Source: Curvibacter sp. CHRR-16 (GTDB taxonomy: Bacteria > Pseudomonadota > Gammaproteobacteria > Burkholderiales > Burkholderiaceae_C). From it: a DNA stretch of 64,000 nucleotides. The stretch lies in the NCBI RefSeq assembly GCF_018474005.1, contig NZ_JAHCSH010000003.1, positions 248,001 through 312,000 of the forward strand, given 5' to 3'. Position 1 is the stretch's first letter. Each line of letters begins with the position of its first letter. Of this stretch, positions 15,933-53,522 are shown piece after piece. The notes beneath the pieces are model-generated. The model did not search any database, had not been told where the DNA came from, and saw only the letters and a program-made list of their open reading frames with translations. Both the position numbers and the translations under genes were made by a program.

Positions 15933-17024
15933 TTACTTGGCCCGGCGGGCGCGCACTGCGGCGGCCAGTTGCTCCAGCACGGGCACGGTTTGCGGCATGC
16001 TGATGCAGGCGTCGGTCACGCTCACGCCGTACTGCAGGGCTTGGCCGGGCACGATGTCTTGGCGGCCTTCGCACAGGTGGCTCTCAATCATCATGCCGGT
16101 GATGCGCTTGTCACCCGCCGCGATCTGGCTCGCCACGTCTTGCGCCACGGTGATTTGGCGTGCGTGCTGCTTGCTGCTGTTGGCATGGCTCACGTCGATC
16201 ATCACCTGCTCGCGCAGGCCCGCAGCCTTGAGCAGCGCGCAGGCAGCGTCCACGTGGGCCGCGCTGTAATTGGGCTCTTTGCCACCGCGCAGGATGACGT
16301 GGCAGTCTTGGTTGCCACGGGTTTCAAAAATAGCGGCTTGGCCCATCTTGGTCATGCCCATGAAAGCGTGCTTGCCTTGTGCGGCCAAGATGGCGTCGGT
16401 CGCTACTTTGATGCCGCCATCGGTTCCGTTCTTGAAACCCACCGGGCACGACAGGCCACTGGCCAACTGGCGGTGGCTTTGGCTCTCGGTGGTGCGTGCG
16501 CCAATGGCGCCCCAACTCACCAGCTCGCTGATGAACTGCGGGCTGAGCAAATCCAAAAACTCGGTCGCTGCGGGCAGGCCCACGTCCAGAATGTCCAGCA
16601 GCAAGCGGCGCGCCATTTCCACGCCCTCGTTGATGGCAAAGCTGCCGTCCATGTGCGGGTCGTTGATATAGCCCTTCCAGCCCACGGTGGTGCGGGGCTT
16701 CTCGAAGTACACGCGCATCACCACCAGCAGGTCTTGCGCCAGTGCATCGGCCTGCACTTTCAGTTGGCGCGCATAGTCCAGCGCCAAGTCGTGGTCGTGG
16801 ATGGAGCAGGGCCCCACGATCACCAGCAAGCGGTCGTCTTGCCCGTTCAACACCTTGGAAATGGCCTTGCGGCTGCTCTCCACCAGCGCCTGCGCAGCCT
16901 CACCCACGGGCAGCTTTTCTTCCAGCAGCGCAGGGGTGATGAGCGGGCGCACGCTGCCAATGCGCAGATCGTCGATGCGGGTGGTGTCGTGGGTGGTCAG
17001 GTGGGCGGTGGCTGTAGTTGTCAT
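15933..17024 (-). CDS. aroG: 3-deoxy-7-phosphoheptulonate (DAHP) synthase, class I
   Basis: A 363-residue class I DAHP synthase (AroF/G/H type) condensing phosphoenolpyruvate and erythrose 4-phosphate in the first shikimate-pathway step. Visible motifs are VIVGPCSIHDHDLALDYA, MRVYFEKPRTTVGWKG, the KNGTDG active-site loop and IDVSHANSSKQH. The length matches the feedback-regulated E. coli enzymes, but which aromatic amino acid inhibits it cannot be read with certainty. The gene stands alone. Its start codon is immediately adjacent to a repeat element at 17025. Confidence 0.93.
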   Translation of the reverse strand: MTTTATAHLTTHDTTRIDDLRIGSVRPLITPALLEEKLPVGEAAQALVESSRKAISKVLNGQDDRLLVIVGPCSIHDHDLALDYARQLKVQADALAQDLLVVMRVYFEKPRTTVGWKGYINDPHMDGSFAINEGVEMARRLLLDILDVGLPAATEFLDLLSPQFISELVSWGAIGARTTESQSHRQLASGLSCPVGFKNGTDGGIKVATDAILAAQGKHAFMGMTKMGQAAIFETRGNQDCHVILRGGKEPNYSAAHVDAACALLKAAGLREQVMIDVSHANSSKQHARQITVAQDVASQIAAGDKRITGMMIESHLCEGRQDIVPGQALQYGVSVTDACISMPQTVPVLEQLAAAVRARRAK

Positions 17025-17071
17025 GCTATGGATTTGATAGCTGCTTGAGCAGGTTGGGTAAGCGCTAGAGG
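17025..17071 (+). repeat. Comamonadaceae-type interspersed small repeat, copy 1
   Basis: The segment reads gctat-(7)-gatagctgcttgagc... and ends gcgctagagg. This matches the small intergenic repeat I recognise from Comamonadaceae genomes, with an AT-type head, an 'atagctgct' core and a 'gcgctagagg' tail. It directly abuts the aroG ATG, so it forms the 5' leader of that gene. A second, clearer copy is at 26573-26637 in the same orientation. Confidence 0.6.
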
Positions 17072-17211
17072 GCGGATGTTAGGGGGTATTTTAGGTGCAC
17101 TATGCACGGTCTCTTTCCGATGTGCTTAACGACCTGGTAAGCTTCGTATCTATTCAAGCAATTAGTAGTTTTTCTGGCAGTGGTGCGCGCGTCTTGTCAG
17201 AGCCAATATTC

Positions 17212-18771
17212 ATGAGTTACAAGGTAATTGATCTTTTCGCCGGCCCGGGCGGACTAGGCGAAGGGTTCGCATCGCTCAACAATGGGCAGGCCTTTAACGC
17301 TGTGGTCTCAGCAGAGATGGAGGCGAGTGCACACAAAACACTGATCTTGCGCAGTTATTTCCGGCATGCAAAAAAAGCCCAAGACAGTAAGCCGCTGGAT
17401 GCTTACTACGATTACTGTCATTCAGCATCTGCCCGTCATCCCAAGGATGCAATCCCCAAGCTGTGGGAAAAAGCCAGCAAAGAAGCTCGCCAAATAATTT
17501 TAGGTAGTGAAGCTGGTAACCAAGAGCTCGATCAAATCATCGCCAATGCCAAGCTCAACGCAGACGAAACCATAGTCATTGGTGGCCCCCCATGCCAAGC
17601 CTACTCATTGGTTGGTAGAGCTAGAAATTTGGGCAAAGCAGATTACGTTGCAGAAAATGACCATCGGCATTTTTTGTACAGAGAGTATTTGCGCATATTG
17701 CAAAAGGTGTCCCCAGCCATCTTCGTCATGGAGAACGTGAAAGGAATTCTTTCATCCAAAGTCAACGAACGGTTGGTCTTTCACGACATATTGCGCGACC
17801 TCTCTAACCCCAGTAAGGCGACTAACTTAGGGGATGGCCCTGAATACGTTATCCACTCTTTGGTGACCGATACACAGTTTTCTCACGGAATGGATCCTGA
17901 GGACATTGATCCCAGAGACTTCATCATTCATGCCGAGAGGTTTGGTATCCCACAAGCACGTCATAGAGTGATCTTGTTGGGCATACGCAAGGATGCTGTT
18001 CCTCCAAATGGTTTTCGCAAGTTGACCCTTGCCGCGAACACCATTGATGTTAGGCAAGCGTTTCAAGGACTTCCCCATCTGCGCAGCAAATTGAGCAAAA
18101 GCGATGATCCGAAAGCTTGGGCTGATACGGTCAGCGCGTTGGCAAAGCAATTGGCTAAAGAAGCGCATAAGACAAAGTGGGGTGAAATTGAAACGAAGTT
18201 GCTTAATGTGCCCGCTGGTATTCGTGATGACCTAAGCACTGGTGCTGTGCGAATTCCGCACCCAGTAGGTGAAGAGCTAGCGCACGGAGGAAATAGACGT
18301 CTATTCCATGCATGGGTGAGGGACGAAAGACTTGCAGTATGGCTAAACCATGAGACCCGTTCGCATATGACGAGTGACCTTGGGCGCTATCTTTTTGCAT
18401 CGTCATATGCAGATCTTTTTGATAAGTCACCTAAAGGCCATGAAGACTTTGCGTTGCCCAGTTTGGCCCCAGCCCATGCAAATTGGCAGACAGGTAAGTT
18501 TGCTGATCGATTTAAGGTACAGGTATACGAACGCCCGAGTACGACCATCACCAGTCACATTGCAAAAGACGGACACTATTTCATCCACCCAGATCCATTG
18601 CAGTGCCGGAGCTTTACTGTGCGTGAGGCCGCAAGATTGCAGACATTCCCAGACAACTATTTCTTTGAAGGTAATCGCACCCAACAATTTCACCAAGTGG
18701 GGAACGCGGTTCCATCACTGTTGGCAAATCAAATAGCGAGGATTTGCTGGAATTTGTTGGAGAGGATGTGA
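17212..18771 (+). CDS. mzaA: Mza defence system: DNA cytosine-5 methyltransferase
   Basis: A 519-residue C5-cytosine methyltransferase. The start at 17212 is chosen because motif I (DLFAGPGGLGEGF, residues 7-19) begins just after it. Motif IV GGPPCQ has the catalytic C128, motif VI is ENVKG (E174), motif VIII is QARHRVILLGIR, and motif X is QVGNAVPSLLANQIA. About 100 residues are inserted between motifs I and IV. The variable region (roughly 250-440) is large and should hold target recognition. It would mark self DNA for the linked effectors. It is distinctly AT-richer than the next three genes (23 of 60 bases GC at 17641-17700) and is separated from them by 122 bp. The letter assigned follows gene order. 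Confidence 0.85.
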   Translation: MSYKVIDLFAGPGGLGEGFASLNNGQAFNAVVSAEMEASAHKTLILRSYFRHAKKAQDSKPLDAYYDYCHSASARHPKDAIPKLWEKASKEARQIILGSEAGNQELDQIIANAKLNADETIVIGGPPCQAYSLVGRARNLGKADYVAENDHRHFLYREYLRILQKVSPAIFVMENVKGILSSKVNERLVFHDILRDLSNPSKATNLGDGPEYVIHSLVTDTQFSHGMDPEDIDPRDFIIHAERFGIPQARHRVILLGIRKDAVPPNGFRKLTLAANTIDVRQAFQGLPHLRSKLSKSDDPKAWADTVSALAKQLAKEAHKTKWGEIETKLLNVPAGIRDDLSTGAVRIPHPVGEELAHGGNRRLFHAWVRDERLAVWLNHETRSHMTSDLGRYLFASSYADLFDKSPKGHEDFALPSLAPAHANWQTGKFADRFKVQVYERPSTTITSHIAKDGHYFIHPDPLQCRSFTVREAARLQTFPDNYFFEGNRTQQFHQVGNAVPSLLANQIARICWNLLERM

Positions 18772-18893
18772 GTTATCTTGCCTTAAGATTTTTGGGAAAC
18801 TTATGAGTCGTCCAAGTGCAGTCTTTAATTTTGTATTTCGTTTGGGTCAGGAAACTAATAAAGGAAAATGAGCCACAAAGGGAAGATTAATGC

Positions 18894-20405
18894 ATGGAGA
18901 CTCAATGCAAAGAAATATTGCTAACCAGTGCTGACCAAGCCAATCAGGCAATCGAAGAGATTCCCCCGAGGGCATCGGCAATGATCGAGGCGATGCGCGA
19001 CATCGGCTACTCGCTGGAGTCGGCGGTCGCGGACATCATCGACAACAGCATCACTGCCCGCGCGAGTGCCGTCGATGTGCGTTTCGGTTGGCATGACGCG
19101 GGAGCGTGGATCGGCATCATCGACGATGGGGAAGGCATGTCGCCCTCAGTTCTCAAGGAGGCGATGCGGCCTGGCACGCGAAATCCGCTCGAGTCGCGAA
19201 GCAAGGATGACCTCGGGCGCTTCGGTCTCGGCTTGAAGACTGCATCGTTCTCCCAGTGCCGCCGGCTGACCGTACTGACCCGCCACGACGGCATCGAATC
19301 AGCGGCGAGGTGGGACCTTGATTACGTCGCGGAGACCGACAAGTGGACGCTCCAGCGCCCGGCCGCCGCTGAACTGGCGCTGATGCCGTGCTTCAACGAA
19401 CTGGGTCCGCAAGGCACTCTGGTGATGTGGGAGAACATCGACCGGCTTGAGTTCGATGGTCGCGACGAGCGGGGCCACCAGCAGCTCAACGAACAGATGG
19501 CCGAGGTCAGGGAGCACGTTGCCCGCATCTTCCACCGCTTCATTGGCGGAGAGCGCGGGTATGCCAAGCTGGCGATGCGCCTGAACATGGCCGACATCCC
19601 GGCGTTCGATCCCTTCAACGAAAGGAGTGCAGCGACGCAGGTACTCCAGGAAGAGCGCGTAGTTACCAAAGCCGGCGACGTGCGGTTGCAAGCCTATGTG
19701 CTGCCGCATCATTCCAAAGTGACCCAAGCCGAGTACCAGCGCTTGGCTGGCACCGAGGGCTACCTCCGGAATCAGGGGTTCTATGTCTACCGAAACCGCA
19801 GGCTCATCGTCTGGGGGACGTGGTTCCGCTTGGCGCCGCAGGAGGAGTTGACCAAGCTCGCGCGGGTCAAGGTCGACATCCCGAACACCCAAGATGCGAG
19901 TTGGGCCATCGACGTCAGGAAGTCGCGTGCGCGGCCTCCAGCCGCCGTCCGTGCGCGCATGAAACAGATCGTCGAGCGCATCCGTTCCTCGGCCAAGCGG
20001 CCGTATACGCACCGGGGCACGCCTGTGTCGGCCGGACCGACTGCCGCCGTTTGGCAGAGGCGCGCGTTCAATGACGCCGTCAGATATGAGGTCAACCCCG
20101 AGCACCCCCTCGTCGCCGACCTTCGTGCGGATCTGGACAGCGATAGCCGGACCCGGCTCGACGCTGTGCTGCGCATGGTGGGGGAAGCCTTTCCCGCGGC
20201 GATCTTCTTCAGCGACTACGCGACAAATCCGCGCGCACTAGAGCCCGCTACCTGCGACGTGGGCGCATTGGTGACCCTTGCGCGTCTCATCGCCGCGGCA
20301 AACCCAGGCATTGACCAGAAGGGGTTGACGGAGCTCCTGCGCGACATCGAGCCGTTCGCCGCTTGGCCCAAGGAACTCGACAAGGTGGCGCGCGACGCGC
20401 TGTAG
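18894..20405 (+). CDS. mzaB: Mza defence system: GHKL (MutL/MORC-like) ATPase
   Basis: A 503-residue protein with an N-terminal Bergerat-fold ATPase. The N-box is AVADIIDNSITA, the G1 box is IIDDGEGM, and the G2 lid is GRFGLGLKTASFSQC. The arrangement is that of MutL/MORC-type ATPases found in restriction-like operons. The C-terminal half (about 300-503) has no recognised enzyme motif. By analogy it would use ATP-driven dimer closure on DNA to coordinate nuclease action. GC content is high (40 of 60 at 19021-19080), unlike the methyltransferase gene. The next gene begins 24 bp downstream. Confidence 0.88.
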   Translation: METQCKEILLTSADQANQAIEEIPPRASAMIEAMRDIGYSLESAVADIIDNSITARASAVDVRFGWHDAGAWIGIIDDGEGMSPSVLKEAMRPGTRNPLESRSKDDLGRFGLGLKTASFSQCRRLTVLTRHDGIESAARWDLDYVAETDKWTLQRPAAAELALMPCFNELGPQGTLVMWENIDRLEFDGRDERGHQQLNEQMAEVREHVARIFHRFIGGERGYAKLAMRLNMADIPAFDPFNERSAATQVLQEERVVTKAGDVRLQAYVLPHHSKVTQAEYQRLAGTEGYLRNQGFYVYRNRRLIVWGTWFRLAPQEELTKLARVKVDIPNTQDASWAIDVRKSRARPPAAVRARMKQIVERIRSSAKRPYTHRGTPVSAGPTAAVWQRRAFNDAVRYEVNPEHPLVADLRADLDSDSRTRLDAVLRMVGEAFPAAIFFSDYATNPRALEPATCDVGALVTLARLIAAANPGIDQKGLTELLRDIEPFAAWPKELDKVARDAL

Positions 20406-45748: not shown

Positions 45749-45821
45749 CCGCCCCCCCGAAAATAGAAAAGCCACACCGTGTTGCGAGGCATTATGCGGT
45801 TAACTATTAAGGATGACCACC

Positions 45822-46979
45822 ATGAACCGATCACTGGATCACCTGCTTTTGCTGTTGGCTGCACTGCTGGTAAGCCTGTTTTTTAGACTTTATCGGTTCA
45901 TGGTTAATCTTACGTTGCCGATCATTTTTGTGGGGCTTTTTGCCTTGCTTTACTGGGGGCATCAGTATTACGGCCTTGGCGCTTGGGCTATGGCGACCGT
46001 GGTCTTGGGCATGGTGTTGCTCGTGGGCACATACACTGCCTATGCGCTGTACCACTACGACAGCGATCGTTTACCCGATTCGGTAGGCGCTGGTGGTGTG
46101 GTCACGCGCATTTGCTCGCGCTTTATCACGTGGCTGGGTACGTTGCGCTACTTCCGGGCGCCGTGGGTGGTGGTGCAAGAGAGCAGCGTTTTCAAACTGC
46201 GCGGCCACGAAATACGCCAACTCATCGACCAGCCCGGCGGCTTGCTGCAGCCAGGGGACATCTTGCTGCGCGGGTTTGACGGCTATGTGGATGGTGAGTT
46301 CATCCGCCTAACTGGTGGTGCTGGCAATGGCAGCCAGTATTTCTCGCACGCCGCACTGTATGTGGGCCCGTTGACCGAGGCCGATCGCGCTATCGCCAGC
46401 CGTCGTCTCAAGGCACTGGGGGCGGATGGCCATTGGCACGAAGCCACGCAAGCGCAGCAAGATGCCGTGCGCCACAACCCGGATTACTTTCAGACGGGCT
46501 CGCAAATGGTCATGCACTCCATGGCCAAAGGTGTGCATGTGGAGGACATCCTCACCTTCTTGCGCTGCGACTATGTGGCCGTGATCCGCATGCCAGAGAC
46601 CTTCACCCGCGCTGACTTGCAGCCCGACGCCCACACCTTGGTGCAACTCAGCGGAGAAGCCAAAACCCTGTACGAGCGCCTGCACGCTGGCGACACCTTG
46701 ACCCGCGCCGAAGTGGCTGTGGCAGCTATCCGCTCTGGTTTGGGGCAAATTGGCGCGGGCTACGACTGCCTGTTTGAAGACAGCGCCACCTTCCACCGCT
46801 TTAGCTGCTCGGAGTTTGTGTACTACTGCTACAAAAGCGTGCACCAAGTGGTGGGCTTGCAGCCCCAAACCCATGCCATAGCGGGTTTGTTCAAGCGCAT
46901 TACCGTGTCACCCGCAGACCTGTACAACGCTGCCGGGGCAGGCTTGGGCAAGATGCGCGTGCTGTGGAAGAACGTTTAG
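45822..46979 (+). CDS. YiiX-like permuted papain-fold (NlpC/P60-related) membrane protein
   Basis: A 385-residue protein. The start at 45822 follows AAGGA; an ATG at 45813 overlaps that site. It has two or three N-terminal hydrophobic segments (LLLLLAALLVSLFF, LTLPIIFVGLFALLYW, MATVVLGMVLLVGTY). The soluble domain has PGDILLRGF, a catalytic-type histidine in YFSHAALYVG and a cysteine in RFSCSEFVYYCY. The His-before-Cys order is that of YiiX/YebB-type permuted papain-fold hydrolases, which act on lipid or peptide amide bonds. The substrate is unknown. The gene is divergent from the EAL gene. Confidence 0.8.
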   Translation: MNRSLDHLLLLLAALLVSLFFRLYRFMVNLTLPIIFVGLFALLYWGHQYYGLGAWAMATVVLGMVLLVGTYTAYALYHYDSDRLPDSVGAGGVVTRICSRFITWLGTLRYFRAPWVVVQESSVFKLRGHEIRQLIDQPGGLLQPGDILLRGFDGYVDGEFIRLTGGAGNGSQYFSHAALYVGPLTEADRAIASRRLKALGADGHWHEATQAQQDAVRHNPDYFQTGSQMVMHSMAKGVHVEDILTFLRCDYVAVIRMPETFTRADLQPDAHTLVQLSGEAKTLYERLHAGDTLTRAEVAVAAIRSGLGQIGAGYDCLFEDSATFHRFSCSEFVYYCYKSVHQVVGLQPQTHAIAGLFKRITVSPADLYNAAGAGLGKMRVLWKNV

Positions 46980-46985
46980 GACTAT

Positions 46986-47204
46986 TTATCGCCGCAGAGG
47001 CTGCAGCAAATGGCGCAAGCCGTTGTGGTCTATGGTCTGCATCAGCTCCAGTAAGCGACCCAGCTCACCGGGTGGAAATCCCTCGCGGGCAAACCAGTTC
47101 AGGTAGTGCCCCGGCAAATCGGCCAGCAAGCGTCCAGCGTATTTGCCGTAAGGCATTGGCATAGAGACAAGCTTGAGTAGCTGGGTGGCGTCGTTGGGGA
47201 GCAT
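46986..47204 (-). CDS. DUF3820 small protein
   Basis: A 72-residue protein (MPMPYGKYAGRLLADLP, YLNWFAREGFPPGELGRLLE) recognisable as DUF3820, a small domain also annotated as a quorum-regulated virulence factor family. The biochemical role is unknown. It converges on the YiiX-like gene 6 bp away. Just upstream lies the decayed ATPase fragment, so this gene marks the left edge of the accessory DNA next to gyrB. Confidence 0.8.
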   Translation of the reverse strand: MLPNDATQLLKLVSMPMPYGKYAGRLLADLPGHYLNWFAREGFPPGELGRLLELMQTIDHNGLRHLLQPLRR

Positions 47205-47236
47205 GGGAGCCGATTGTGCGTGCCGCGACTTGTTTT

Positions 47237-47423
47237 TTTGTCAGTTGGCGACCTTTGTGGCCGAAAAACGTTGACGATCTCATGGAAATCTTGAACTAGG
47301 GCCAGAATGTTCTCAAGGTCATCAGTGGTCAGTGTTGTGCGTTCGAACAGCATTGCCACAACAAGCTGTCTGCCCGACAGGTAGCTTCTCGGCCCACTTC
47401 TGAATTTCGCTAAGGATAGTCAC
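47237..47423 (-). pseudogene. Frameshifted 5' stub of a large defence-type ATP-binding protein
   Basis: A perfect AGGAGG (47430-47435) precedes a GTG start at 47423, but the frame closes after 33 codons (VTILSEIQKWAEKLPVGQ...). One base out of register the sequence continues as VVAMLFERTTLTTDDLENIL then ALVQDFHEI. Joined, these resemble the N-terminal helical segment ('LSEIQxW...LPxWQ...LT..DL..L..L....HGI') seen on large AAA/SMC-like ATPases of defence loci. A single extra A near 47371 would explain the break. The rest of the gene is missing. The family call is from memory of the motif. Confidence 0.6.
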
Positions 47424-47467
47424 TTGTTGCCTCCTGAAGGCTGGTCGCCCAGTTGTCGCGCTGTTCT

Positions 47468-48916
47468 TTACATGAAAAGTCGGTAGGGATAAACCTTGCC
47501 GGGCAGGTCCGGAACATTGGCGATGGTCCGCGCCAACCGCTGCGAATACCGAATGCTCACCGGTACTGGGTCATACAGTGCGTCGTTGTTCCAGTCCATC
47601 TTGGTCAGAGCAAGCGCTTCGTGGGCAATCAGCTCTAGCGAGCCTCTTCCAGCATGCCGGATGAGTTGCAGCGGCTTCGGGATGCTCTTCTTCCCTTGGT
47701 AGTAGTCGCCTCTCGTAGATACCTCAGGTGCGTTGCCGGCCACCCATACGAGTGCCGAGGTCCCCGAACGGGCGACCATCGTCCCTCGGGGAACCGGATA
47801 GCCCGATGGTCTGGTCGGCGGCGTCGCACCAGCAGACTGAATCAGCCAGACCCCTCGCCAGCAGGACGCTGCACCGACCTCTACACACTCAATCTCAGCC
47901 ACGCCGGACAGCGCATCAAACGCGCCTTCGATTTCCTCCTGCTTGAACGCCGTGGTCTTGTGGATGACCAGTCGTTTGGGCAAGTTGCCACCATTGCGGC
48001 CCTGATAGAGCTCAAGGCTTCGTGCGAGAACCGCACGCATGTCGTCCCGGCTCAGAAAGGGGTTGCGGCGGGCCTCGGCTACGTCGGCGACAGGGTCGCG
48101 CGCTTCGAACGCCACGAACTGCATGCCTCCGCCGTCCATGTCAAAAACCTGCGAGCAACACGTCACATAGTGAGCGTCACGCTGGTCGCCACGTAGTGCA
48201 TAGGCGAGGCCGATGTACGCGGTGTCATCGGGCACCCCTTTCAGCGGAGCCAACTTCCAAGGTGTCCCCGCCGCCTTCACGTAAAGGGCGGTTGCCAAGC
48301 GCCAGGCGAGCGAAGCCTTGTAGTTGAAGGTGAAAACTCGGTCGTTGAGCACCTGGGTAGGAATGTTGTACTTTGCCCCCAGTGCTTTGAGTGCGTCGTG
48401 TGCATCGAAGAACTTGCTGCGTGTTGCGGTAGCCCAGGAGTCCGGGAAGTGCACCAGCACCACATCGAACTCGTTGCGCACCGCATCAAGCCTGCGAAGA
48501 GCGGAATTCATTGCCTGGAACAGCCGAGCCTGCGGATCGCCGTCGCCTGGAAGTTGAGCTAGGGAGTCAGGCCATTTGATATGCGCGCCGCGCGCCGCCT
48601 CCAACTGCACACCGAACAATCGATCAAAGCCTGGGTACGGTGGCACGTACTCGGAGCGGTCGCTGGGCTGGTATGAGCCGCGCAGAGATGCCATCAGCTC
48701 ACCACGGCGTTTGTACGAACTCTCGGGCCCCACAGTGGCGATTCGAATCTGCGAGGTGTACCCACCGAATGAGCCCTTGGAATACGGCCCGAAATTGAGT
48801 AGTCCTCTCAGGGGATGGACGTCCACCTGTGTGTCGTCCGACGGCGAGAAGGAGAGCAGCGGCTCGTCCAGGAGCGTGAATGGCGGAAGCTTCGATGCTT
48901 GGAAGGAACTGGCCAT
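47468..48916 (-). CDS. Short prokaryotic Argonaute (MID-PIWI, catalytically inactive), SPARSA type
   Basis: A 482-residue short pAgo without N or PAZ domains. The MID domain (about 150-225) keeps the guide 5'-end pocket pattern YNIPTQVL...FNYKASLAW...LYVKAAGTPW. The PIWI domain (about 230-482) has lost catalysis: YIGLAYAL (235-242) replaces the first catalytic Asp, and IHKTTAF (318-324) replaces the second Asp. It should bind guide and target without cutting and switch on its SIR2-APAZ partner. The ATG at 48916 overlaps the partner's stop codon (TGATG); a GTG at 48919 is the alternative. The two proteins are coupled and presumably made in equal amounts. Confidence 0.9.
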   Translation of the reverse strand: MASSFQASKLPPFTLLDEPLLSFSPSDDTQVDVHPLRGLLNFGPYSKGSFGGYTSQIRIATVGPESSYKRRGELMASLRGSYQPSDRSEYVPPYPGFDRLFGVQLEAARGAHIKWPDSLAQLPGDGDPQARLFQAMNSALRRLDAVRNEFDVVLVHFPDSWATATRSKFFDAHDALKALGAKYNIPTQVLNDRVFTFNYKASLAWRLATALYVKAAGTPWKLAPLKGVPDDTAYIGLAYALRGDQRDAHYVTCCSQVFDMDGGGMQFVAFEARDPVADVAEARRNPFLSRDDMRAVLARSLELYQGRNGGNLPKRLVIHKTTAFKQEEIEGAFDALSGVAEIECVEVGAASCWRGVWLIQSAGATPPTRPSGYPVPRGTMVARSGTSALVWVAGNAPEVSTRGDYYQGKKSIPKPLQLIRHAGRGSLELIAHEALALTKMDWNNDALYDPVPVSIRYSQRLARTIANVPDLPGKVYPYRLFM

Positions 48917-50814
48917 CACTTGGTCCTATCGAAGTAGGTGTGATGGTGGCCTGGTCGGCTCCAGCCAGTGAACCGCGAGACGGTGAACACTGCGTCGATG
49001 CCAATGCCATCCTCCAGACCGAAGGCGCGGACCTTGCCGTCCTTGGCCGACGTGAGCAGCGTTGCCCACGCGTGGATGATCGCTGCCCACTGCTTGTTGT
49101 ACTTCGGAGCCCAACGCTCTCTTCGCCAGTCTCCCGCCGGATCACCACCGCGGCGTTCGAATGGCACTCCCAACGCGTCGTTTTCGGTACTACCTGACTC
49201 TGGCTGAAGGGCCCGCTCAGAGTGCTCAGGCCGGGGAATGTCTACGAACGTGTATGGCTCGAAGCCGCACCACCAACGGTCCTCTATCTGTTCCAGCTTC
49301 AAGAAGACACCTTCATTGAACGGGAAGTTGAGCTTCGGGACGTTGCCCGTGAGGGCGCTCTCATACGCCGTGCGCAGTGGGGCGAGGTCCTGTGAACGCT
49401 TCAGAGCGAATTCCGGGTCCTCGCCTTCCCGAGGGCTGGCGACGATGAGTGAGTGCCCGGAACGCTTGAACCGAGGAATGAGGGGGCGATACCGAGACAG
49501 AGCTTTGACCAACGCGTCGTACAGAAGACCCAACGCCCAGCTGTCCCTGGCCGCATCCAAGTCTACCGTCCCCGCGATCTGAGCTCCGAGGGGCGCTAGC
49601 GCTGCCAAGACTTCTTCGTCTTTCCCGAACACCGCTAGTTCACGGCCATTTGCGGCGACGACTGCCCTGCTGTGCTGTTCTTTCAATAGTGCTCTGACCG
49701 TGGGAGAGGTCGCAGCCTGCGCTAGGGTCATCCGCCGTGCAACGCGCGGCAACGATTCGATGAGGAGTGCGGAGTACCGCAGCACCGGAAACTCCCGGGC
49801 GTGGCTGTTCGGCAGATTGACGGGCACCAGGCGGGGGGCAGCCCTGCCTTGCATCACATGGTCCATCAGCACCTGCGGCAGGTCGACATGCTTGATGACA
49901 TCACCTGCCAATTCGTCGAACGTCTTGCACTCGACCACCGCAACGTCGACGCCAGCAAGATGAGCGTGCTCCAAGAACTCAGTGACCGCAGGTAGGAGAC
50001 GGGAAGCGGACGATGTCACCCAATACAGGCCGTTCGGAAACGGTGCAGGTTCCCGTAAGACTGCGGTCAACGCCTCCATAACCGAAGCGTCCCGCCCGCT
50101 GTAACCGACGAACACCATCCCGAAGCGTTTGCTTGCCTCGACGAGCACGTGCCGCATGCGCTCGTCCTGCCGCTCGAGTTCAGACCCTGTGTTCTTGATG
50201 GCGATGGATTGGTAATCGCCATGGAGCTTGGCCACCAAGGGCCAGTCCGACTCGTTGAGGCAGCGCATGGCGCGCTCTCCCGAGTCAATGGCCGCGACCG
50301 TTGGCCGCGCCTGATCCGCCGTGGGCAGCAATACGTTGGCACTGACTGCGGATTCCTCCACCAGGGGGTCAAAGTTGGTGGTGAATATGCAGTCCACCTT
50401 GCGGGCGGCAATCAGGCTTCCGAGAACCTTGTGCCCAAAGCAAGGCGTGCCTTTGGAGATGGCGTCGTCAATGTACTGCCTGCGATGCCGGGGCTGGGGG
50501 TAGACCGCTTCGAACGCCGCAGCGTACTCGGTCGGGTCTCCATCTGGCGGGAGAAGCGAGGTTTGCCTGAAGAAGGCGTCGATCCGGTCAATCCAGACTT
50601 GGTCGCCGGTGTCGATTTCGCGCTTGGAGAGGTTGTTCTTGCGACAGAAGATTTGGGCCTTGAAGTCCCGAATCATCGCGTAGCCAGTAGGAATTCCTGA
50701 CGCGGCGGAAGCGCCAGCCCCGAGGAACCAGGCCACCAAGTTGGGCCTCAAGGCGAAGGCCGTTGAGAACTGTGCTGCCGAGATTGTCGGTATCGAACTA
50801 GACACGTAGCTCAT
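48916..50814 (-). CDS. SIR2-APAZ NADase effector of the short Argonaute system
   Basis: A 632-residue fusion. The N-terminal SIR2 domain (about 22-290) shows the NAD-binding GAGAS (32-36), TTNFDPLV with N147, KLHGD with the catalytic-type H198, and VFVGYSGRD. Residues from about 340 to the end (ARRMTLAQAATSP... to HHHTYFDRTK) form the APAZ domain, which substitutes for the missing N-PAZ half of Argonaute and holds the partner. In characterised SPARSA systems, target recognition by the pAgo triggers NAD+ depletion and abortive infection. The gene has AAGGA upstream and starts 122 bp downstream of gyrB, on the same strand. Confidence 0.92.
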   Translation of the reverse strand: MSYVSSSIPTISAAQFSTAFALRPNLVAWFLGAGASAASGIPTGYAMIRDFKAQIFCRKNNLSKREIDTGDQVWIDRIDAFFRQTSLLPPDGDPTEYAAAFEAVYPQPRHRRQYIDDAISKGTPCFGHKVLGSLIAARKVDCIFTTNFDPLVEESAVSANVLLPTADQARPTVAAIDSGERAMRCLNESDWPLVAKLHGDYQSIAIKNTGSELERQDERMRHVLVEASKRFGMVFVGYSGRDASVMEALTAVLREPAPFPNGLYWVTSSASRLLPAVTEFLEHAHLAGVDVAVVECKTFDELAGDVIKHVDLPQVLMDHVMQGRAAPRLVPVNLPNSHAREFPVLRYSALLIESLPRVARRMTLAQAATSPTVRALLKEQHSRAVVAANGRELAVFGKDEEVLAALAPLGAQIAGTVDLDAARDSWALGLLYDALVKALSRYRPLIPRFKRSGHSLIVASPREGEDPEFALKRSQDLAPLRTAYESALTGNVPKLNFPFNEGVFLKLEQIEDRWWCGFEPYTFVDIPRPEHSERALQPESGSTENDALGVPFERRGGDPAGDWRRERWAPKYNKQWAAIIHAWATLLTSAKDGKVRAFGLEDGIGIDAVFTVSRFTGWSRPGHHHTYFDRTK

Positions 50815-50936
50815 TCGCTTTTTTCCTTGGATGCGACGGCTTTATAAATCCGTCGGTCAGCCCTATTAAACGCCCTCAAATCATAGATTTTGCAAAATAT
50901 TGTTCGCCGTATTGCATCTTATAAATCGTTCAAAAA

Positions 50937-53522
<2,586 letters not shown>

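Follow-up and report, generated by a model that had tools for sequence, protein, structure and literature searches.

SPARSA systems pair a short prokaryotic Argonaute (pAgo) with an effector that joins a SIR2 domain to an APAZ domain. For the complex of Geobacter sulfurreducens (GsSPARSA), the accessible text of two studies describes an NADase triggered by guide RNA and target DNA (PMC10781750; PMC10474274), and that of the second describes the complex without higher-order assembly (PMC10474274). PDB entry 8y80, found among our fold matches, bears the title of a tetrameric SPARSA complex. Here we analysed a window of 64,000 nucleotides from Curvibacter sp. CHRR-16 (contig NZ_JAHCSH010000003.1, positions 248,001 to 312,000), in which two genes directly downstream of gyrB very probably form a SPARSA defence operon, that is, a guided SIR2 NADase with a short pAgo.

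The pair is an intact, ordinary member of a known system and, by analogy with Geobacter, most likely an RNA-guided NADase. A guide RNA would be held jointly by the MID-PIWI Argonaute and the APAZ domain, and pairing of the guide with invading plasmid or phage DNA would lead the SIR2 domain to hydrolyse nicotinamide adenine dinucleotide (NAD+). Loss of NAD+ would then arrest or kill the host cell, so that the invader could not spread. Assembly of the complex, the kinds of guide and target, the NADase activity and the abortive outcome are all predicted here from the Geobacter relative.

The SIR2-APAZ effector and the short Argonaute

The effector consists of a SIR2 NADase domain (residues ~10-314), a linker and an APAZ domain (~344-622). 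Its gene is matched by PADLOC (4.5e-227) and by Pfam SIR2_2 (2.2e-13), and the protein matches Geobacter SPARSA in PDB 8in8 and 8jkz. An AlphaFold model (mean pLDDT 83) predicts both the SIR2 and the APAZ fold, with APAZ C-terminal on the same protein. The best fold matches are SPARSA chains, according to a Foldseek list and a re-alignment of that list that is not independent of it; matches beyond the SPARSA chains mostly cover the SIR2 domain alone.

Active-site residues were mapped through a phmmer alignment onto those reported in PMC10781750. N147 and H198 align to Geobacter N142 and H186, both of which are required for NAD+ loss in the accessible text of that study. They are conserved in 78 of 79 relatives, that is, in all best matches covering both positions. 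Geobacter F143, D144, Y226 and F287, single changes of which abolished activity in the same text (PMC10781750), are conserved here, as are Y89, S227, R229 and D230.

The pAgo is made up of MID and PIWI only. It is matched by PADLOC pAgo_I (8e-213) and by a further profile (4.5e-123), and it aligns over residues 9-483 with the SPARSA pAgo 8in8_C (2.3e-94), the next chains matching at 9.9e-29 or weaker. H174, K178, Q189 and N192 correspond to GsAgo H166, K170, Q181 and N184 of the guide 5'-end pocket and are identical in all 80 relatives. The stretch AYIGLAYAL, which we take to be the place of the first catalytic Asp in slicing Argonautes, holds no Asp, as in GsAgo; this is the one slicer position compared. 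The pAgo start codon overlaps the stop codon of SIR2-APAZ, and both reading frames are intact.

A sequence-only reading had proposed a SPARSA-type pair directly after gyrB, pointing to N147 and H198, a C-terminal APAZ-like region and the overlapping start and stop codons. All of these hold up, and the predicted SIR2 and APAZ folds, whose absence it had named as counting against it, are both present. The guided NADase mechanism that it named is well supported, by analogy, through homology, the conserved active-site residues and the predicted fold.

Relatives, selection and distribution

A scan of named genomes gave 131 relatives, of which the best 80 underlie the relative counts throughout. In 79 of these 80, the pAgo is immediately preceded by a SIR2-APAZ match. 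The nearest relative is a Rhodoferax metagenome bin (L043), at a nonsynonymous distance (dN) of 0.056 for pAgo and 0.084 for SIR2-APAZ and a synonymous distance (dS) of ~1.2. The resulting dN/dS of ~0.05-0.07 reveals strong coding constraint, and hence strong purifying selection.

The pAgo tree comprises the window and 77 of the 80 relatives, three with partial pAgo matches being left out. Pseudomonadota account for most of the 77 rows; five are Actinomycetota, and Deinococcota and Thermodesulfobacteriota contribute one each. By path, the rows closest to the window pAgo are those of Rhodoferax, Pseudomonas and Duganella; resolution in this part of the tree is poor. Two further sets hold the window with 40 of the 79 SIR2-APAZ relatives (A4) and with 23 of the 80 pAgo relatives (A3).

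Within the genus, the SIR2-APAZ gene occurs in one of 103 genomes, so the pair is not fixed in relatives; fixation in all of them with no defence phenotype is what the sequence-only reading had named as counting against it. Eight of 200 genomes drawn from the family have some match, the seven others among these eight being partial at 28-37% identity. From this patchy distribution we infer horizontal acquisition of the pair.

Altered contact residues and alternative explanations

Several substitutions weigh against a functional SPARSA. In the pAgo, GsAgo R190/N195 and Y84 are replaced by F198/S203 and V92, while Y359 is kept as Y374; in the effector, Geobacter R30, S38, R190 and E262 are A37, Y45, Q202 and L274. 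The accessible text of PMC10781750 places GsAgo R190 and N195 at guide nucleotides 2-3 and Y84 at the target end, and reports the R190/N195 and Y84/Y359 double mutants as dead. Single alanine changes of SIR2 R30, S38, R190 or E262 left activity in that text, and Y89A with R190A was dead (PMC10781750). The R190/N195 contact is described for Geobacter and was not counted as defining SPARSA.

Together with the degraded-looking remnant that adjoins the pair (judged by eye), these changes could indicate a decayed or inactive copy left after horizontal transfer, and some relatives do look broken (a stop in SIR2-APAZ of L119; a pAgo match from residue 110 only in L093). We consider such decay improbable: the frames are intact, the catalytic residues are kept, dN/dS against L043 is low, and the altered residues are common to most relatives. 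Position 198 is F in 79 of 80 relatives and Y in one; position 203 is S or Q in all 80 (S in 74); V92 is found in 73 of 80, Q202 in 68 of 79 and L274 in 77 of 79. Position 374 varies (Y 49, F 24, A 6 of 80). Because the changed contact residues are so widely shared, a different guide or target-end preference is likelier than lost function. F198/S203 suggest a different 5'-guide preference, and this clade probably reads the second and third guide nucleotides differently from Geobacter.

Even less probable is another NADase defence: SPARTA, a stand-alone SIR2 system of the ThsA or DSR2 kind, or SIR2 linked to a long-B Argonaute. The SIR2 domain alone does resemble ThsA, DSR2 and KomBC in fold, but it is SIR2 and not TIR, APAZ is present, and the Argonaute is short and matches the SPARSA pAgo much better than the chains that follow. 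The least credible reading of all is that the pair has a gyrB-linked housekeeping role in place of defence: gyrB lies on the same strand across a gap in which a simple scan of 46900-51200 found no terminator-like site, but the SIR2-APAZ gene is confined to one of 103 genus genomes and tblastn found no GyrB match in the flanks of the 80 related loci (at most 8 kb long, and less where a contig ended), so SPARSA is not tied to gyrB.

Locus layout and immediate surroundings

The SPARSA pair and its neighbours are listed in Table 1. The motif AAGGA, resembling a ribosome-binding site, precedes the ATG of SIR2-APAZ. No sigma-70-type promoter was matched in the scan of 46900-51200, whose two terminator-like sites, at 47380 and 47563, lie outside the gap and are fewer than in shuffles. 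Just before SIR2-APAZ, at 50834-50855, two six-base arms (CGACGG/CCGTCG) form an inverted repeat around an AT-rich loop of 10 bases, with no T run after it; this is possibly an operator. High gene dosage of the pair owing to the proximity of oriC is plausible.

Table 1. Coordinates of the pair and adjoining features in the window
Feature	Position	Strand	Length	Basis
YiiX/YaeF-like permuted papain amidase gene, left neighbour, convergent	45813..46979	+		Pfam Peptidase_C92 2.7e-07
Short degraded-looking coding remnant, between pAgo and YiiX-like gene	47099..47440	-		86-aa open reading frame, reading by eye
Short prokaryotic Argonaute (MID-PIWI)	47468..48919	-	483 aa / 483 codons	PADLOC, PDB, profile matches
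SIR2-APAZ effector	48916..50814	-	632 aa / 632 codons	PADLOC, Pfam, PDB, AlphaFold model, residue mapping
Gap between gyrB and SIR2-APAZ	50815..50936	-	122 bp	Sequence, promoter/terminator scan
gyrB, upstream same-strand neighbour, right edge of accessory locus	50937..53513	-		Pfam

To the left of the pair, the 86-aa frame in the remnant has no match in NCBIfam; judged by eye, the remnant looks like the beginning of an AAA-type defence protein. The YiiX-like gene is matched in nine of the 103 genus genomes, this one included. In seven of the eight others the YiiX-like gene and gyrB are on separate contigs; gyrB was not located in the eighth. Elsewhere in the window, GC content falls to ~0.48 at 17001-19000, against ~0.63 on both sides, a possible foreign segment.

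We found no element boundary or target duplication that would mark a mobile element. When 45.8-54.0 kb was compared by same-strand blastn with the 80 named loci, all but L114 matched, in no case by more than 23 bases beyond the pair, DNA similarity thus stopping at the gene ends; repeats around the pair are just short imperfect matches, and no tRNA was predicted by ARAGORN anywhere in the window. Composition gives no signal of recent transfer, since GC content at third codon positions is 0.70-0.73 in the SPARSA genes and six other genes of the window span 0.59-0.82.

Neighbouring genes at the related SPARSA loci vary, and a conserved third gene was rejected: apart from the pair, no cluster occurs in more than seven of the 80 loci. 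Among ten chosen neighbour proteins, several match profiles of defence proteins (HamA, HamB, SoFic, RT-protease, type I restriction-like or Mrr-type), and two have no match in either library. Reverse transcriptases of one cluster lie near SPARSA at seven loci (L051, L059, L073, L085, L107, L109, L118), the L107 member matching RT-Protease type XI. At four loci a HamA-HamB (Hachiman) pair follows SPARSA (L056 by profiles; L053, L063 and L069 by cluster), with a SoFic-like gene ahead of it in L056 and L063.

The 3' side of gyrB in the genus

The sequence-only reading had regarded the position after gyrB as unusual for an accessory locus. We fetched gyrB 3' flanks from 40 genus genomes, of which 39 contained the gyrB end and 36 were used (the four unused being the one lacking the gyrB end and three shorter than 500 bases). 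Grouping of the first gene predicted after gyrB gave 27 clusters for the 36 flanks, one of eight members and one of three; the genes were called by a simple gene caller that may count small spurious frames. The region is thus highly variable, and PADLOC matches near gyrB occur in at least 12 of the 36 flanks, counting RtcR/BrxL and the candidate PDC-S36. Within the genus, the view of an unusual site is therefore unsupported.

The eight-member cluster is a Zorya III operon (L124, L129, L130, L131, L134, L135, L136, L147). PADLOC matched DUF3348 (ZorG) and ZorA of L124 and ZorB and DUF2894 (ZorF) of L129, and in each of the eight genomes gyrB is directly followed by a ZorG match. The accessible text of PMC8565338 reports that Zorya III protects E. 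coli against phages, and uses the reverse labels (DUF3348 as ZorF, DUF2894 as ZorG). In the eight flanks the first frame starts at the last base of the gyrB stop codon, the overlapping bases being seen in four plus-strand loci, which suggests that Zorya III is translationally coupled to gyrB. A ninth genome with ZorG adjoining gyrB (G012) lies outside the fetched flanks.

Four non-Zorya flanks have matches within the first three genes of at least 150 aa: JetA-JetB-JetC in L155; type III restriction, encoded on the opposite strand, in L145; CARF-RtcR, an RNA-repair regulator, and after it BrxL on the opposite strand in L133; and PDC-S36, only a candidate, in L142. The scan of these near genes (PADLOC, E 1e-10) covered 85 of 107 proteins in 29 of 36 flanks, seven of the eight Zorya flanks (21 proteins) being left out as duplicates; one 2069-aa protein, scanned separately, gave no match. 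It returned 63 PADLOC families, 25 among the matches listed, and further matches may exist. Scanned singly, 8 of 20 near proteins had clear defence-type matches and 12 had none. The eight are given as the first gene of L145, three of L155 and two of L133, plus the second gene of L145 with weak helicase matches and a WYL regulator in L150; these last two did not enter the flank tally. Outer genes (ranks 6-8; 53 of 74 scanned) gave 12 families, with mad3 and mad8 found in two proteins each and PglX and type IIG in one each.

The SPARSA pair thus sits in a variable interval that starts at the gyrB end and often bears other defence genes. A stronger proposal, which we think unlikely, is that SPARSA, Zorya III, Wadjet and others have each docked independently at the 3' end of the gyrB operon, which would make this end a recurrent docking site and let defence ride on gyrB expression. 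In 28 of the 37 genus genomes with ZorG, none is seen beside gyrB or it could not be placed; the eight Zorya genomes may represent one event, and the near/outer comparison is weak, resting largely on the Zorya group, so that enrichment, or a statistical hotspot, is not proven. In E. coli, gyrB transcription rises on DNA relaxation. If the proposal were true, defence genes after gyrB could for that reason be induced when a phage disturbs host supercoiling, making the operon end a testable expression-linked docking site. The location is more interesting than the system itself, as a core operon end repeatedly bordering unrelated defence systems. It is noteworthy as a variable boundary repeatedly holding defence genes, and not for the reason first given.

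Comparison with known systems

Zorya type III in the eight fetched relatives occupies the same slot in the same genus, with unrelated proteins and mechanism. SPARTA (TIR-APAZ with a short pAgo) shares the logic of an NADase-APAZ protein beside a short pAgo, according to the accessible text of PMC10474274, but has TIR in place of SIR2, and its pAgo is a weaker match (e.g. 8fex, 2.5e-19). The closest loci, L043 and L044-L049 (Agrobacterium, Pseudomonas, Duganella, Bradyrhizobium and others), carry the same gene pair at 84-90% pAgo and 71-86% SIR2-APAZ identity; they differ in their surroundings, the DNA match ending within 23 bases outside the pair and no GyrB match appearing in the fetched flanks.

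GsSPARSA (PDB 8in8, 8jkz, 8jl0, 8y80) has the same two genes, domain order, catalytic N and H, guide 5'-end residues H/K/Q/N and predicted fold. It differs in identity (~25% over the SIR2-APAZ structural alignment), in effector length (587 aa, against 632 aa here) and at pAgo R190/N195 and Y84 and SIR2 R190. The Geobacter protein is the only solved SIR2-APAZ relative found by the structure searches. The Curvibacter pair adds an intact SPARSA from a widespread, well-conserved clade whose guide-contact residues are unlike those of Geobacter, and offers a useful comparison for guide choice.
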